64,000 nucleotides of DNA, from assembly GCF_004349065.1 (NCBI RefSeq), contig NZ_SMKZ01000032.1, forward strand, positions 1-64,000, given 5' to 3'. This DNA comes from Jiangella asiatica. GTDB lineage: Bacteria; Actinomycetota; Actinomycetes; Jiangellales; Jiangellaceae. Position numbers and translations under genes: made by a program. The notes beneath the pieces were generated by a model that was not told where the DNA came from, searched no databases, and was given only the letters and a program-made list of their open reading frames with translations. Shown here one piece after another: positions 37 to 4,776 of this stretch (position 1 is its first letter; every line of letters begins with the position of its first letter).

Positions 37-930
37 ATGCACCGTCGTGCCTTCACCGTCACCGCCGGCCTGGCCGGCGCCGCCGCGGCCCTGCTGCTGA
101 CCGCCTGCGGCGGCGACGACGCCGCGACCGCCTCCGGCGAGTCCGGCGACCCGATCCGCATCGGCGTCGTCGGCGCCAGCGAGGACTACTGGCAGGTCTT
201 CTACGACCTCGCCGCGGACGAGGGCATCGAGGTGGAGCTGGTGAACTTCACCGACTACACCCAGCCCAACCCGGCCCTGTCGCAGGGTCAGCTCGACCTC
301 AACCAGTTCCAGCACCTGCAGTACCTGGCCGCGTACAACGTCGCCAATGACGACGACCTCACGCCGATCGGCGCCACCGCGATCTACCCGCTCGGCCTCT
401 ACTCGCACGAGCACGACGCCATCGAGGACATCCCCGAAGGCGGAGAGGTCGCCATCCCGAACGACGAGACCAACCAGGCCCGGGCGCTGCTCGTGCTGCA
501 GGACGCCGGGCTGATCACGCTCGAGGGTGGCGGCAGCTCGACGTCGCTGCCGTCGGACGTGGTTGAGGAGGAGTCGCGGGTGACGGTGACGCCGGTGGCC
601 GCCGAGCAGACCGCTACCGCCCTGAACAGTGTCGACGCCTCCGTCATCAACAACGACTTCGTCGCCGACGCCGGGCTGGAGCCGGCCGAGGCGCTGTACC
701 AGGACCAGGCAGACAGCCCCGGTGCGCAGCCGTACATCAACATCTGGGTGGCCCGAGCCGACGACGCCGAGAACGAGACGTTCCAGCGCCTCGTCGACCT
801 CTACCACTCACCCGAGGTGCAGGATGCCTCGTCCCAGGCCTCCGGCGGCACCGCGGTCTTCACCGACAACCCGGCCGACGAGCTGGGGGACATCCTCGGC
901 GGCATCGAGACGGACCTGACAGCGCACTGA
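37..930 (+). CDS. metQ: Methionine ABC transporter substrate-binding lipoprotein (NlpA/MetQ family)
   Basis: A 297-residue lipoprotein that should capture methionine (or its D-form/derivatives) outside the membrane and hand it to MetNI. The N-terminus has an Arg pair, a hydrophobic stretch and a lipobox ending LTAC with lipid-carrying Cys24; a Gly/Asp-rich tether follows. The core shows NLPA-family features: a GVVGASEDYW strand near residue 45 and the NPALSQGQLDLNQFQH segment around residues 78-93. A GAGGAG ribosome site lies 10 bases before ATG. The stop shares one base with the metN start, so the three genes form one operon. The upstream regulatory region, where a SAM riboswitch could sit, is outside the window. 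Substrate is inferred from family and neighbours. Confidence 0.93.
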   Translation: MHRRAFTVTAGLAGAAAALLLTACGGDDAATASGESGDPIRIGVVGASEDYWQVFYDLAADEGIEVELVNFTDYTQPNPALSQGQLDLNQFQHLQYLAAYNVANDDDLTPIGATAIYPLGLYSHEHDAIEDIPEGGEVAIPNDETNQARALLVLQDAGLITLEGGGSSTSLPSDVVEEESRVTVTPVAAEQTATALNSVDASVINNDFVADAGLEPAEALYQDQADSPGAQPYINIWVARADDAENETFQRLVDLYHSPEVQDASSQASGGTAVFTDNPADELGDILGGIETDLTAH

Positions 931-1916
931 TGGCACCGCTGATCAGCTTCGACAACGCGACCAAGGTCTTCGGCACCGGCGAGCGAGCCGTCCGGGCCGT
1001 CGACCAGGTCACCCTCGACATCGAGACCGGCGAGATCTTCGGCGTCATCGGCTACTCCGGCGCCGGCAAGAGCACGCTGGTCCGACTGGTGAACGCGCTC
1101 GGCGAGTCCGAGCTGCGCAAGCTCCGCGGCGACATCGGCATGATCTTCCAGCAGTTCAACCTCATGAGCGCGCGCACCGTCGCCGGCAACGTCGCGTTCC
1201 CGCTCAAGGTGGCCGGCTGGTCGCGGCAGCGGCGGGCCGAGCGGGTCGCCGAGCTGCTCGACTACGTGGGCATCGCCGACAAGGCCCGCTCCTACCCCGG
1301 TCAGCTGTCCGGCGGGCAGAAGCAGCGGGTCGGCATCGCCCGCGCCCTGGCGACGTCCCCGAGCATCCTGCTGGCCGACGAGGCCACCAGCGCCCTGGAC
1401 CCCGACACGACCCAGGACGTCCTGGCGCTGCTGCGGCGGGTGAACCGCGACCTCGGCGTGACCGTCGTCGTCATCACCCACGAGATGGACGTCATCCGGT
1501 CCATCGCGCACCGGGTAGCGGTCATGGAGGCCGGCCGGGTGGTCGAGCACGGGCCCGTCTACGACGTGTTCGCCGCGCCCCGTGAGCGCGCCACCCACCG
1601 GTTCGTCGCCTCCACGCTGAGGGACCGGCCGACGCCGGAGACGCTGGAGCGACTGCGGCACCGCCACCCGGGCCGCATGATCACCGTCGGCATCCGGGAG
1701 GGCGGCGGCTCGGGAACCGACGTGACCGCCGCGCTGCGCGCACACGCCGTCGACGGCACCATCGTCTACGGCGGCATCAGCGAGATCGACGAGCGGCCGT
1801 TCGGCTCGCTGACGCTGGAGCTGGCCGGGACCGACGCCGCCATCGACGAGCTGATCGCGCAGCTGCGGCGGACGACTGACGTCGACGATCTCGGCACCGC
1901 GGCGGTGCCGGCATGA
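930..1916 (+). CDS. metN: Methionine ABC transporter ATP-binding protein with C-terminal NIL domain
   Basis: ATPase of the MetNIQ importer, 328 residues. Walker A is GYSGAGKS (41-48), the Q-loop follows at about 75, the signature is LSGGQ (126-130) and Walker B is LLADE (147-151). The region after about residue 250 fits the NIL (ACT-like) methionine-sensing domain. Oddity: after Walker A the sequence goes from LVRLVNAL straight into GESELRKLRG (residues 57-58). Family members carry roughly 20 more residues here (the ERPTSG...VDGxDvt beta segment), so an in-frame internal deletion is likely. All catalytic motifs remain. Start overlaps the metQ stop by one base; the end overlaps metI by ATGA. 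Confidence 0.93.
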   Translation: MAPLISFDNATKVFGTGERAVRAVDQVTLDIETGEIFGVIGYSGAGKSTLVRLVNALGESELRKLRGDIGMIFQQFNLMSARTVAGNVAFPLKVAGWSRQRRAERVAELLDYVGIADKARSYPGQLSGGQKQRVGIARALATSPSILLADEATSALDPDTTQDVLALLRRVNRDLGVTVVVITHEMDVIRSIAHRVAVMEAGRVVEHGPVYDVFAAPRERATHRFVASTLRDRPTPETLERLRHRHPGRMITVGIREGGGSGTDVTAALRAHAVDGTIVYGGISEIDERPFGSLTLELAGTDAAIDELIAQLRRTTDVDDLGTAAVPA

Positions 1917-2575
1917 ACCGCGACTGGGACGTCCTGACCCCGATCCTGCTGGACTCGGTGCGCGAGACGCTGTCCATCGTGTCGATCACGGTGGCGGTCG
2001 GCGGTGTGCTCGGGCTCGTGCTCGGCGTGCTGCTGTACGCCACCCGCAAGGGCAACCTGCTGCACAACGCCGTCGTGTTCACGGTGCTCAACGTCGCCGT
2101 GAACGTCGTGCGACCGATCCCGTTCATCATCTTCATCACCGCCGTCGGGCCGCTGACCCTCGCCGTCGTCGGCACCACGATCGGCAACGAGGCCGTCATC
2201 TTCGCGATGTCGATCATGGCGACCTTCGTGACCGCGCGGATCGTGGAGCAGAACCTGGTGGCCACGGACCCGGGCGTGATCGAGGCGGCCCGGGCCATGG
2301 GCGCGTCGCGGCTGCGCATCCTGGTCACCGTGCTGATCCCGGAGGCGCTGGCGCCGCTGGTCCTCGGCTACACGTTCCTGCTCATCGGCATCGTCGACAT
2401 GTCCGCCCTGGCCGGCTACGTCGGCGGCGGCGGGCTGGGCAACTTCGCGATCGTCTATGGCTACCAGCGGTTCAACTGGGAGGTGACGCTGGTGACCGTG
2501 CTTGTCATCATCGCCCTGGTCCAGCTGGCACAGCTGCTGGGCAACTGGCTGGCCCGCAAGGCGCTGCACCGCTGA
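1913..2575 (+). CDS. metI: Methionine ABC transporter permease
   Basis: Inner-membrane subunit of the methionine importer, 220 residues, a normal MetI length. It has about five hydrophobic helices. The cytoplasmic EAA loop reads EAARAMGASRLRILVTVLIP around residues 122-141 and contacts the MetN ATPase. The start ATG overlaps the metN stop (ATGA), so translation is coupled. It is the last gene of the operon and is followed by a strong hairpin between convergent genes. Confidence 0.93.
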   Translation: MNRDWDVLTPILLDSVRETLSIVSITVAVGGVLGLVLGVLLYATRKGNLLHNAVVFTVLNVAVNVVRPIPFIIFITAVGPLTLAVVGTTIGNEAVIFAMSIMATFVTARIVEQNLVATDPGVIEAARAMGASRLRILVTVLIPEALAPLVLGYTFLLIGIVDMSALAGYVGGGGLGNFAIVYGYQRFNWEVTLVTVLVIIALVQLAQLLGNWLARKALHR

Positions 2576-2647: not shown

Positions 2648-3910
2648 TCAGCGGGCGGCGACCGGGGCGTCCCACAGCTCGGTGCCGTGCGCCTCGACCA
2701 GCGCGGCGACGCGGGCGACCACGTCGGCCGCGGGCAGCGCCGGTAGCCGGCGACCGTCGCGCAACCGGACGGCGACGGCGTCGTCGGCGGCCTCCGCGGC
2801 GCCGATGACCGCCTGGTACGGCACCAGCCGTTCGGCCCGGATGCGCGCGCCGAGGCTGCCCCGTTCCGGGCCGGCGACCCGCACCCGCAGGCCCCGCTCG
2901 AGGCAGCGGCCGGCCAGCGCGTCGGCGGCGGCTCGCTCGGCGGCGGAGATCGGGACGACCACCACCTGGGTGGGAGCGAGCCACGGCGGGAAGGCGCCGC
3001 CGTGCTGGTCGACCAGGTGCGCGACCGCTCGCTCCAGCCCACCGATGATGCTGCGGTGCACCATGACCGGGCGGTGCCGGGCGGCGTCGGCACCGATGTA
3101 CTCCAGGTCGAACCGCTCCGGTTGGTGGAAGTCGATCTGGATGGTCGACAGGGTGGTCTCGCGCCCGACGCCGTCGGCGATCTGGACGTCGATCTTCGGG
3201 CCGTAGAAGGCCGCCTCGCCCTCTGCCGGCTCGTACGGCACACCGGCGGAGTCCAGCGCCTCGACCAGCAGAGCAGCCGCCTCACGCCACCGAGCGGAGG
3301 CGCCCACGTACTTGCCGCCGACGGCCTCGCCGCGGACCCGGTCGACGCCGGCCTCGGGCAGCGACAGCCGGTAGCGCACCGGAACGATGCCCATGGCCGC
3401 GTGGGCCTGCTGGATGAGCCGCAGCGCCGCGCCGGCCTCCGCGGCCGCCTGGTCCGCGGTGCAGAAGATGTGCCCGTCGTTGAGCTGGATGGCGCGGACC
3501 CGGGTCAGCCCGCCGAGGACGCCGGACAGCTCCGAGCGGTACATGCCGCCGAGCTCGGCCAGGCGCAGCGGCAGCTCACGGTAGCTGTGCTCCCGGGCGC
3601 GGTAGATGAGGGCGTGGTGCGGGCAGAGGCTGGGCCGCAGCACGAACTGCTCGCCACCGAGGTCCATTGGCGGGAACATGTCGTCGTCGTAGTGCGACCA
3701 GTGTCCCGAGATCTCGAACAGCTCGCGCTTGCCCAGCGGCGGCGAGTACACGTGCTGGTAGCCGGCCCGCTGCTCGACCGCGTGGATGTAGTCCTCCAGC
3801 GCGTGCCGTACCGCGGCGCCGTCGGGCAGCCAGTACGGCAGCCCAGCGCCGATCAGCGGGTCGGTGTCGAAGATGCCCAGCTCACGGCCGAGCTTGCGAT
3901 GGTCGTACAT
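2648..3910 (-). CDS. thrS: Short threonyl-tRNA synthetase lacking TGS and editing domains
   Basis: Class II aminoacyl-tRNA synthetase of 420 residues. Bacterial ThrRS normally has about 640; here the N-terminal TGS and N2 editing domains are absent and the protein begins at the catalytic core (DHRKLGRELGIF). Zinc ligands are conserved: Cys in PSLCPHHALIY, His in NDGHIFC, His in MVHRSIIGGLER. Motif 2 (GGMYRSELSGVLGGLTRVR) is present but with Gly where SGxLHGL normally has His. The C-terminal anticodon-binding domain follows (VVVPIS onward). A GAGGAG site lies 6 bases before ATG. It is preceded by a Thr leader peptide and hairpin. It is probably an inducible second ThrRS, possibly drug-insensitive or a starvation form; a full-length copy elsewhere is expected but not visible here. 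Confidence 0.88.
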   Translation of the reverse strand: MYDHRKLGRELGIFDTDPLIGAGLPYWLPDGAAVRHALEDYIHAVEQRAGYQHVYSPPLGKRELFEISGHWSHYDDDMFPPMDLGGEQFVLRPSLCPHHALIYRAREHSYRELPLRLAELGGMYRSELSGVLGGLTRVRAIQLNDGHIFCTADQAAAEAGAALRLIQQAHAAMGIVPVRYRLSLPEAGVDRVRGEAVGGKYVGASARWREAAALLVEALDSAGVPYEPAEGEAAFYGPKIDVQIADGVGRETTLSTIQIDFHQPERFDLEYIGADAARHRPVMVHRSIIGGLERAVAHLVDQHGGAFPPWLAPTQVVVVPISAAERAAADALAGRCLERGLRVRVAGPERGSLGARIRAERLVPYQAVIGAAEAADDAVAVRLRDGRRLPALPAADVVARVAALVEAHGTELWDAPVAAR

Positions 3911-3953
3911 GTGGTCTCCTCGCGACAGTGGAGCGAGTGACGGCGCGACGACG

Positions 3954-3983
3954 AAGGCCCCGGGGCACTCGCCCCGGGGCCTT
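3954..3983 (-). terminator. Attenuator hairpin in the thrS-like leader
   Basis: Perfect 12-bp stem (AAGGCCCCGGGG / CCCCGGGGCCTT) with a 6-base loop, lying 18 bases after the leader-peptide stop and 43 bases before the thrS-like ATG. No U-tract follows. Its position between leader peptide and structural gene fits the terminator arm of a ribosome-controlled attenuator. I did not find a convincing competing antiterminator stem by eye. Confidence 0.7.
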
Positions 3984-4000
3984 GGTGTGACGGACAGGTG

Positions 4001-4051
4001 TCAGCGCGCCGGGACGGACTCCGGCGTCGTCGTCAGTACGGCACGCTTCAC
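4001..4051 (-). CDS. Threonine-rich leader peptide of the thrS-like gene
   Basis: A 16-codon reading frame, MKRAVLTTTPESVPAR, starting with GTG preceded by GGAGATC and ending in TGA just before a strong hairpin. It contains three consecutive ACG Thr codons. Leader peptides with runs of the cognate codon upstream of a terminator are the hallmark of amino-acid attenuators: ribosomes stalling at scarce charged tRNA-Thr would prevent the hairpin and switch on the synthetase. The coding of the 16 residues and the position are seen directly; the mechanism is inferred. Confidence 0.72.
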   Translation of the reverse strand: MKRAVLTTTPESVPAR

Positions 4052-4058
4052 GATCTCC

Positions 4059-4064
4059 ACGCTA
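4059..4064 (-). promoter_or_regulatory. Candidate -10 box (TAGCGT) of the thr leader transcript
   Basis: TAGCGT on the minus strand lies 7 bases before the leader GTG, so transcription could begin at or next to the start codon. No good -35 hexamer is visible. Confidence 0.4.
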
Positions 4065-4206
4065 ACAGACGACGACGGCTCGGCACCGCGGGTTTTCACC
4101 GGATGCCTCCTCGCGATGCAACCGGAGCGGCGGCTCGCGAGTGATCACAAGTGAGAAGCCGGTAGACCGGTCGTCCTCGACCGGCCGGCGACGTCAGGAG
4201 GTCATC

Positions 4207-4776
4207 ATGATCATCCGGCATCGAGTCCGGCGCGCCGCGTTCGCGCTCGCCGCAGTCACCATCATCCCGCTCGGTCTGCTCGCCACGTCCGGCCCGGCTC
4301 AGGCCGCGAGCTACCAGGGCAAGGTCACCACGGGGCTCAACGTCCGCAGCGCGCCCACCTCGGCCTCGCCGAAGGTGGGGTCGCTGGCCGCCGGGACCAC
4401 CGTCACCATCCAGTGCAAGGTCTACGGACCGTCCGTGTCCGGCAACGACCTCTGGTACAAGCTGTCCAACGGCCGCTGGGTCACCGCGCGCTACATCGCC
4501 AACATCGGCACCGCGCCGCGCTTCTGCGGCACCGGCACCGAGTACGCCGGCCGGGTGTCCAGCCAGACGTCCCTCGCCGTGCGCAGCGGCCCCAACACCG
4601 CGAACGCCAAGGTCAGCTCAATCCCGCGCGGCATGCCCGTGTACATCGTCTGCAAGGTCGACAGCCAGCGCATCGACGGCAACACCCGCTGGTACCAGCT
4701 CGTCGGCGACGGCGGCGGCCAGTGGGTCGCGGCGCGCTACGTGACGAACGTCGGCACCATCCCGCCGTACTGCTGA
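4207..4776 (+). CDS. Secreted protein with two SH3-like (SH3b) domains
   Basis: 189 residues. A Sec signal peptide (Arg-rich start, hydrophobic core, ending GPAQA near residue 33) is followed by two bacterial SH3 repeats. Each contains an NVRSAPTSAS/AVRSGPNTAN-type RSGPxT motif, a conserved Cys pair and a W(V)(T/A)ARY ending (about 36-100 and 112-189). Such domains bind peptidoglycan or mediate wall contacts. The protein has no enzymatic domain. The ATG at 4207 was chosen because AGGAGG ends 5 bases before it; an upstream GTG would add a non-signal-like N-terminus. Confidence 0.85.
   Translation: MIIRHRVRRAAFALAAVTIIPLGLLATSGPAQAASYQGKVTTGLNVRSAPTSASPKVGSLAAGTTVTIQCKVYGPSVSGNDLWYKLSNGRWVTARYIANIGTAPRFCGTGTEYAGRVSSQTSLAVRSGPNTANAKVSSIPRGMPVYIVCKVDSQRIDGNTRWYQLVGDGGGQWVAARYVTNVGTIPPYC

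Follow-up and report, generated by a model that had tools for sequence, protein, structure and literature searches.

In Bacillus subtilis, a second threonyl-tRNA synthetase (ThrRS), thrZ, is induced on threonine starvation through T-boxes; the short ThrRS gene described here is likewise a second and putatively inducible ThrRS beside a housekeeping thrS, but it is preceded by a leader peptide rather than by a T-box riboswitch. ThrRS T2 of Anabaena is a stress-induced second ThrRS with impaired editing (PMC4787780) and resembles the short ThrRS, which is putatively inducible and has no editing domain, although according to the accessible text it keeps a degenerate editing domain and is under zinc/Zur control, unlike the short ThrRS. 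Thr codons in a leader are also found in the E. coli thr operon, which has eight ACC codons, the choice of regulatory codon being explained by which isoacceptor loses its charge (PMC1183508); there, ACC codons precede the thr operon, whereas here the codons are ACG, and the synthetase gene that follows them itself avoids the codons presumed to be sensed. The LEU element of actinobacterial leuA, which combines a cognate codon run with a pseudoknot and pairing involving the SD (PMC1262725), is reminiscent of the present leader in its codon run and its SD-involving pairing; however, in that element it is the run of Leu codons that base-pairs with the SD, and its sequence and gene are others. In its accessible text, the same 2005 survey of actinobacteria found neither conserved RNA structures ahead of threonine operons nor classical T-boxes in actinomycetes.

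The closest described system is thrL-thrS of Streptomyces lividans TK24 (SLIV_19412/SLIV_19410), reported in 2021 with the leader MKRVRPFLETTPGFVPAR*, a leaderless start determined by RNA-seq, one hairpin and no U-rich stretch (PMC8079986). The present locus is similar in its Thr leader peptide, its probable leaderless start, its single hairpin and its lack of a U-rich stretch and, judged from the peptide, S. lividans thrL evidently belongs to the same leader family. That report, as far as its accessible text goes, covers one species, while the conservation, competing helices, anti-SD strand and codon purge given below come from the present analysis. In the open-access literature, we found no description of a family-wide leader, an anti-SD system or a codon purge of this kind, which is not proof of their absence.

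The window (the whole 64,000-nt stretch of Jiangella asiatica contig NZ_SMKZ01000032.1 that was analysed) carries the following features, listed in the direction of transcription:

4059..4064, (-): -10-like element TAGCGT, 7 nt 5′ of the leader GTG
4051-4001, (-): leader ORF thrL, 16 codons with a GTG start, encoding MKRAVLTTTPESVPAR*; found in the window and in relatives
4025..4033, (-): three consecutive, putatively regulatory Thr codons, ACG ACG ACG, with position-wise conservation in 91 leaders
4021..4026, (-): strand 1, CGCCGG, overlapping the last Thr codon and complementary to CCGGCG of strand 2
4001..4015, (-): strand 2, GTCCCGGCGCGCTGA, the end of the leader ORF, with three potential pairing partners: strand 1, the KRA codons and strand 3
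3983-3954, (-): hairpin 3:4, AAGGCCCCGGGGC-GAGT-GCCCCGGGGCCTT, a 13-bp GC stem with a four-base loop, terminator-like without a U-tract
3966..3973, (-): segment in the loop of the hairpin, GGCGAGTG, with complementarity to the anti-SD strand
3930..3941, (-): anti-SD strand, GTCACTCGCTCC, between hairpin and gene; able to base-pair either with the loop of the hairpin or with the SD
3908..3923, (-): SD region, GCGAGGAGACC (SD GAGGAG), with the start ATG at 3910-3908
2648..3910, (-): short ThrRS, 420 aa, consisting of catalytic core and anticodon domain, with ACC used for each of its 8 Thr codons

We consider it probable that these features form an isoacceptor-specific, ribosome-mediated attenuator that responds when ACG decoding fails and turns on a backup ThrRS, the gene of which avoids the ACG and ACA codons.

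In Pfam, the window ThrRS matches only PF00587 (class II core) and PF03129 (HGTP anticodon-binding), with no TGS or tRNA_SAD domain at E≤0.001, and it exceeds the cut-off of the NCBIfam thrS model TIGR00418 (413.9 vs 383.65 bits). Its best sequence match among solved structures is 1nyq, which we take to be the Staphylococcus aureus ThrRS (352 bits; others, including E. coli forms, at most 253 bits). Across 91 relatives the protein spans 403–440 aa from the aligned start, and C96, H147, H285, R125 and R294 are intact in all 91; their roles as zinc ligands (C96, H147, H285) and motif 2/3 arginines (R125, R294) are assumed from E. coli ThrRS. Elsewhere the genome encodes a full-length ThrRS of 657 aa (thrS, G000:C44), a scan of the 350 nt upstream of that gene gave no short ORF rich in Thr, and both forms were present in 12/12 genus genomes searched. 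The original prediction was right in describing a 420-residue ThrRS without TGS and editing domains, in taking it for a second ThrRS and in placing a 16-codon leader with three consecutive Thr codons before it; its perfect hairpin is also there, with 13 bp rather than 12. A Gln occupies the position of E. coli L489 (borrelidin pocket, by eye; the pocket positions are presumably those of E. coli ThrRS) in the short ThrRS and in the genome's own full-length ThrRS, and because the latter has it too, this residue is uninformative on the putative inhibitor resistance that the original prediction had proposed for this enzyme, as an alternative to its being error-prone. Lacking editing, the short ThrRS may produce some Ser-tRNA-Thr, which the full-length enzyme may clear in trans; T1 and T2 of Anabaena offer a comparison (PMC4787780).

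We take SCO3778 of S. coelicolor to be the ThrRS orthologue. In its accessible text, one report lists SCO3778 among the targets of sigma-E whose binding was found in ethanol-stressed cells only (PMC10771440), and SCO3778 was not found in the main text of a study of WblC (PMC7157823). Convergent to the short ThrRS gene, window positions 37-2575 have the look of a MetNIQ-type ABC importer (by eye); for metNIQ of S. lividans, a leader peptide with several Met and Thr codons has been reported (PMC8079986).

The leader ORF reads GTG AAG CGT GCC GTA CTG ACG ACG ACG CCG GAG TCC GTC CCG GCG CGC TGA. A Thr triplet alone is unremarkable, occurring in 5 of the 607 window ATG/GTG ORFs of 10–30 codons (both strands, nested starts counted separately, thrL included); we judge thrL to be real because the leader is kept in 91/94 upstream regions of short-ThrRS relatives, usually as M[K/Q]R...TTTPE.VPAR, and on this sequence conservation its Thr run is not a product of chance. 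The original prediction had proposed conservation of the Thr codons and hairpin in relatives as a check, and the relatives bear it out. The 94 sampled loci (ThrRS >60 % identical) comprise 80 genome contigs (80 of 217 relatives) and 14 further loci, and include at least two same-species pairs (the upstream regions of L090 and L089 read as those of L063 and L076, from J. aurantiaca and J. ureilytica respectively). The three leader-negative loci are L017 and L054, where contig ends cut the region, and L050, which has a hairpin without a leader; their removal gives the set of 91, removal of L075 (no SD motif found) gives the 90 used for folding, and cutting these 90 to 71 at 93 % similarity gives the alignment (A1) used for the RNA statistics. 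L050 retains hairpin and SD region with no Thr leader within 350 nt, a possible natural loss of the sensor.

In all 91 leaders, a TANNNT element lies 6–8 nt 5′ of an in-frame start (7 nt in 70, 6 nt in 19 and 8 nt in 2), compared with 2.6 % of random positions. Because of this spacing, the thrL mRNA is probably leaderless.

A covariance model (R1) made from the 71 leaders was used to scan 296 genomes of the class, returning 58 matches in 52 genomes. Of these matches, 43 were strong (E<1e-12), one per genome in 43 genomes, and the remaining 15 were weak (E 1.6e-6 to 8.5e-4). A short ThrRS was detected in 47/296 genomes (E≤1e-105), and 42 of the 43 strong matches lie directly upstream of such a gene on the same strand, at most ~320 nt from its matched part, while the 43rd (G236), without a gene, is located at a contig end. 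The weak matches in G020 and G202 are likewise placed immediately 5′ of a short ThrRS gene and on its strand; the short ThrRS of G019 has a diverged Thr leader (by eye), and in G163 and G291 the contig starts too near the gene for a leader to be judged. A regulon of thrL-type leaders elsewhere was considered and rejected; of the 15 weak R1 matches, those in G020, G202 and G001:C1:2730896 were read, and the last looks like an ordinary terminator. The 13-base leader motif, with 871 genome matches at ≤1 mismatch, is too common for searching.

Two sets of loci stand apart from the family pattern. At the contig end in G236 (L180, G236:C18:1-600), leader, hairpin and SD are kept, and the sequence after the start is not ThrRS-like and reaches the contig end, possibly on account of a mobile-element insertion. 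The diverged short ThrRSs (54 % identical) of G020 (L101/L176) and G019 (L102/L179) keep ACGACGACGCCGG and a TANNNT 7 nt 5′ of the start, with a different downstream layout in which a GGGCTCC/GGAGCCC hairpin lies over the SD (by eye).

Strands 1 and 2 can form six pairs, each formable in at least 70 of the 71 aligned leaders, and GUCCCGG of strand 2 is complementary to CCGGGGC of strand 3, the 5′ arm of the hairpin. Helices 1:2, 2:3 and KRA:strand 2 give no covariation signal because they are almost invariant; the variable codon of the leader is the one in the loop of helix 1:2. When the transcript ends before strand 4 and a ribosome is stalled at the third Thr codon, with an assumed footprint reaching 18 nt beyond the first Thr base, helix 2:3 is part of the MFE structure in 66/71 leaders, as against 10/71 ribosome-free. 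Shuffling strand 2 and the linker moved the mean energy from -20.1 to -17.3, and since 20 % of shuffles reach the real mean, we take the 2:3 folding as support and not as proof. In these predicted folds of truncated transcripts, the helices compete as in a ribosome-mediated attenuator. The alternative fold anticipated by the original prediction is thus found in truncated transcripts but not at equilibrium, where folding of 90 loci in three ribosome states revealed no switch: the median SD accessibility was 0.25 in all three states, stalling raised it by >0.2 at 4/90 loci, and the SD hairpin was mostly closed in every state. The mechanism would therefore have to be kinetic. We do not propose as the ON state a fold that has strand 3 paired simultaneously to strand 2 and to the anti-SD strand, as holding strand 4 single gave helix 2:3 in 59/71 leaders and the loop:anti-SD helix in only 5/71.

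Hairpin 3:4 has 12–14 bp of GC in most species, whereas in the genus of the window the best hairpin found has a stem of only 7–10 bp at 9/12 loci. A run of T4 or longer follows it in 4/71 leaders and is absent in the window. Because the U-tract is lacking, we class the element as attenuator-like and not as a classical transcription attenuator; the layout that the original prediction had recognized holds in its Thr leader, its alternative helices and its conservation, but a plain intrinsic terminator is not supported. By cmscan against Rfam, no T-box was detected in window positions 3700-4400 up to E=5, the 9 weak matches being unrelated and all below the gathering score.

Some covariation was observed in the hairpin, and covariation also in the pairing of its loop. 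In hairpin 3:4, 11 cells were changed on both sides (0/500 shuffles), with two-sided changes in 5/13 pairs (reached by 16/500 shuffles). The loop GGCGAGUG and the downstream CACUCGCC are 95.3 % paired across the 71 leaders (slid versions 33–55 %), and 6/8 loop:anti-SD pairs have changes on both sides (0/500 shuffles); in all these hairpin, loop and SD statistics, the shuffles leave sequence relatedness in place. When duplex energies of own and swapped partners were compared across the 71 leaders, 0/2000 permutations were as low for either the loop or the SD, the swap test being applied to the SD region as a whole; on unique variants, the figures were 2/2000 (loop) and 0/2000 (SD). The column test was passed by the outer SD helix (3/1000 shuffles as good) and failed by the inner one (967/1000), because MAFFT misaligns the SD block in some rows. 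One anti-SD strand with two mutually exclusive partners suggests translation control and, with the U-tract usually missing and the anti-SD strand covarying with both loop and SD, such control has likely been added to attenuation.

From the anatomy and conservation established here, the predicted competing helices, the covariation of hairpin, loop and SD, the codon purge described below and the second full-length thrS, we infer translation of the leader, a switch and its direction, with termination, SD occlusion or both as the outcome. The leaderless thrL would be translated from its first nucleotides. With charged tRNA-Thr reading ACG (CGU, helped by UGU), the ribosome would reach the stop codon and cover strand 2, allowing hairpin 3:4 to form and the anti-SD strand to hold the SD, so that little ThrRS is made. 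If ACG decoding stalls, the ribosome would instead cover strand 1, leaving strand 2 to pair with strand 3; hairpin 3:4 would then be prevented or delayed and the ThrRS gene expressed. Candidate triggers are a shortage of threonine, a housekeeping ThrRS that is lost or inhibited, and the loss of those tRNAs that read ACG.

Two narrower versions of this explanation differ in the output of the switch. A purely translational attenuator, in which hairpin 3:4 is no terminator and the position of the ribosome selects the partner of the anti-SD strand, either the loop, which leaves the SD free, or the SD itself, which is then closed, overlaps with our reading and is a serious possibility that falls somewhat short of an even chance. 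It accounts for the 67/71 leaders without a T4 run, for the covariation of loop:anti-SD and SD and for the short stems in the genus of the window, and the distant G019 and G020 loci have no hairpin 3:4 but another SD-occluding hairpin in its stead (by eye). However, the 12–14 bp GC hairpin of most species exceeds what the display of a loop needs, and the SD hairpin is closed in all folded states. A classical transcription attenuator only, with the loop/anti-SD complementarity as a by-product, appears unlikely, though it is by no means far-fetched: the Thr codons, strands 1–4 and the ribosome footprint fit a trp-type design, helix 2:3 is predicted to respond to stalling as such a design expects, and Streptomyces trpS, leuS and ilvB have predicted or reported attenuators (PMC1262725, PMC8079986). 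Against it stand the U-tract missing from those 67 leaders and the two-sided changes in the loop:anti-SD pairs, which no shuffle reproduced.

The isoacceptor-specific attenuator that we prefer rests also on the codons of leader and gene, which lie at opposite extremes. The leader Thr codons are ACG in 268/273 cases (position 1, 87/91; position 2, 91/91; position 3, 90/91), whereas the 809 Thr codons of the 91 short ThrRS genes are ACC 797, ACT 7, ACG 5 and ACA 0. By comparison, flank genes (276 ORFs called mechanically, each at least 250 codons long and high in GC3) use 31.4 % ACG and 2.4 % ACA (6584 Thr codons), and the homologous part of 16 full-length thrS genes uses 26.0 % ACG and 0.4 % ACA (227 Thr codons). 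ACG and ACA are the two most depleted codons, at ~40-fold (half-counts added), with the next codon at ~3.4-fold; 87/91 genes have zero ACG, where 5.3 would be expected. The purge persists among 18 representatives <80 % identical (0 ACR of 159 Thr codons), in alignment columns with Thr in at most 10 sequences (ACR 5/142), at the 17 class-sample loci L157–L173, whose species may overlap (ACR 1/172; zero in 16/17), and in the diverged genes of G019, G020 and G202 (no ACR, 14 ACC). Thr itself is scarce, making up 2.18 % of the short ThrRS, 3.58 % of the same region of full-length thrS and 6.24 % of flank genes, none of which (0/276) falls below 2.18 %. Among the 46 tRNA genes found in the genome, three are for tRNA-Thr, one with each of the anticodons GGU, CGU and UGU; by standard wobble, GGU reads ACY codons, and ACR codons fall to CGU and UGU. 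A gene nearly without ACG and ACA, and poor in Thr, could therefore do with tRNA-Thr(GGU) as its only tRNA-Thr when it is induced. The ACG leader set against an ACG/ACA-avoiding gene and the covarying loop/anti-SD/SD system are additions beyond the original prediction. Among other codons, Lys AAA is 3.7-fold enriched in the short ThrRS genes (22 % vs 6 % in flank genes), mostly at alignment columns 61 and 295.

It is improbable that this avoidance reflects ordinary translational selection or base composition rather than starvation-proofing. Highly expressed genes often prefer C-ending codons, and hom of the genus (homoserine dehydrogenase domain, L223–L234) is intermediate, with ACG in 8 of its 76 Thr codons; yet the short ThrRS genes match flank genes closely in their Ala, Pro, Val, Arg, Leu and Gly codons and roughly in Ser, and no purge is seen in thrC (ACG 43.7 % and 33.8 % in two paralogue sets of 12) or in four further class II synthetases encoded by the genome (ACG at 37 of their 95 Thr codons), nor in full-length thrS at 14 other-genus loci (ACR 20.4 %). 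Finally, that the peptide TTTPESVPAR senses a drug or metabolite by nascent-chain arrest is highly improbable, for although its C-terminal residues are conserved and most leaders have their stop codon 30 nt downstream of the first Thr codon, the conservation is at the nucleotide level with a variable loop codon, a one-base deletion in L019 shifts the frame after TTTP and alters the peptide end while the RNA is retained, L037 and L041 have one extra codon inserted, and C-termini differ in distant relatives.

Returning to the ACG-sensing attenuator, leader and gene might together form a codon-partitioned circuit, in which ACG reports on the ACR readers and an ACY-written enzyme is made when ACR decoding fails. 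Its trigger could be an isoacceptor-selective loss (tRNA cleavage, a ThrRS inhibitor, or zinc or threonine shortage) rather than general starvation, and termination could be combined with SD control through a loop that competes with the SD for the anti-SD strand; we see the chances for and against this extended proposal as evenly balanced. Selective-charging theory, reportedly set out by Elf in 2003, would favour such a design if the CGU and UGU isoacceptors lose their charge first. With sensor and gene codons at opposite extremes of what is probably one transcript, the locus offers a natural test of selective charging, and its codon-level sensor could serve as a reporter of threonyl-tRNA shortage. 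The arrangement suggests how actinomycetes may keep an inducible, editing-less spare ThrRS without classical T-boxes.
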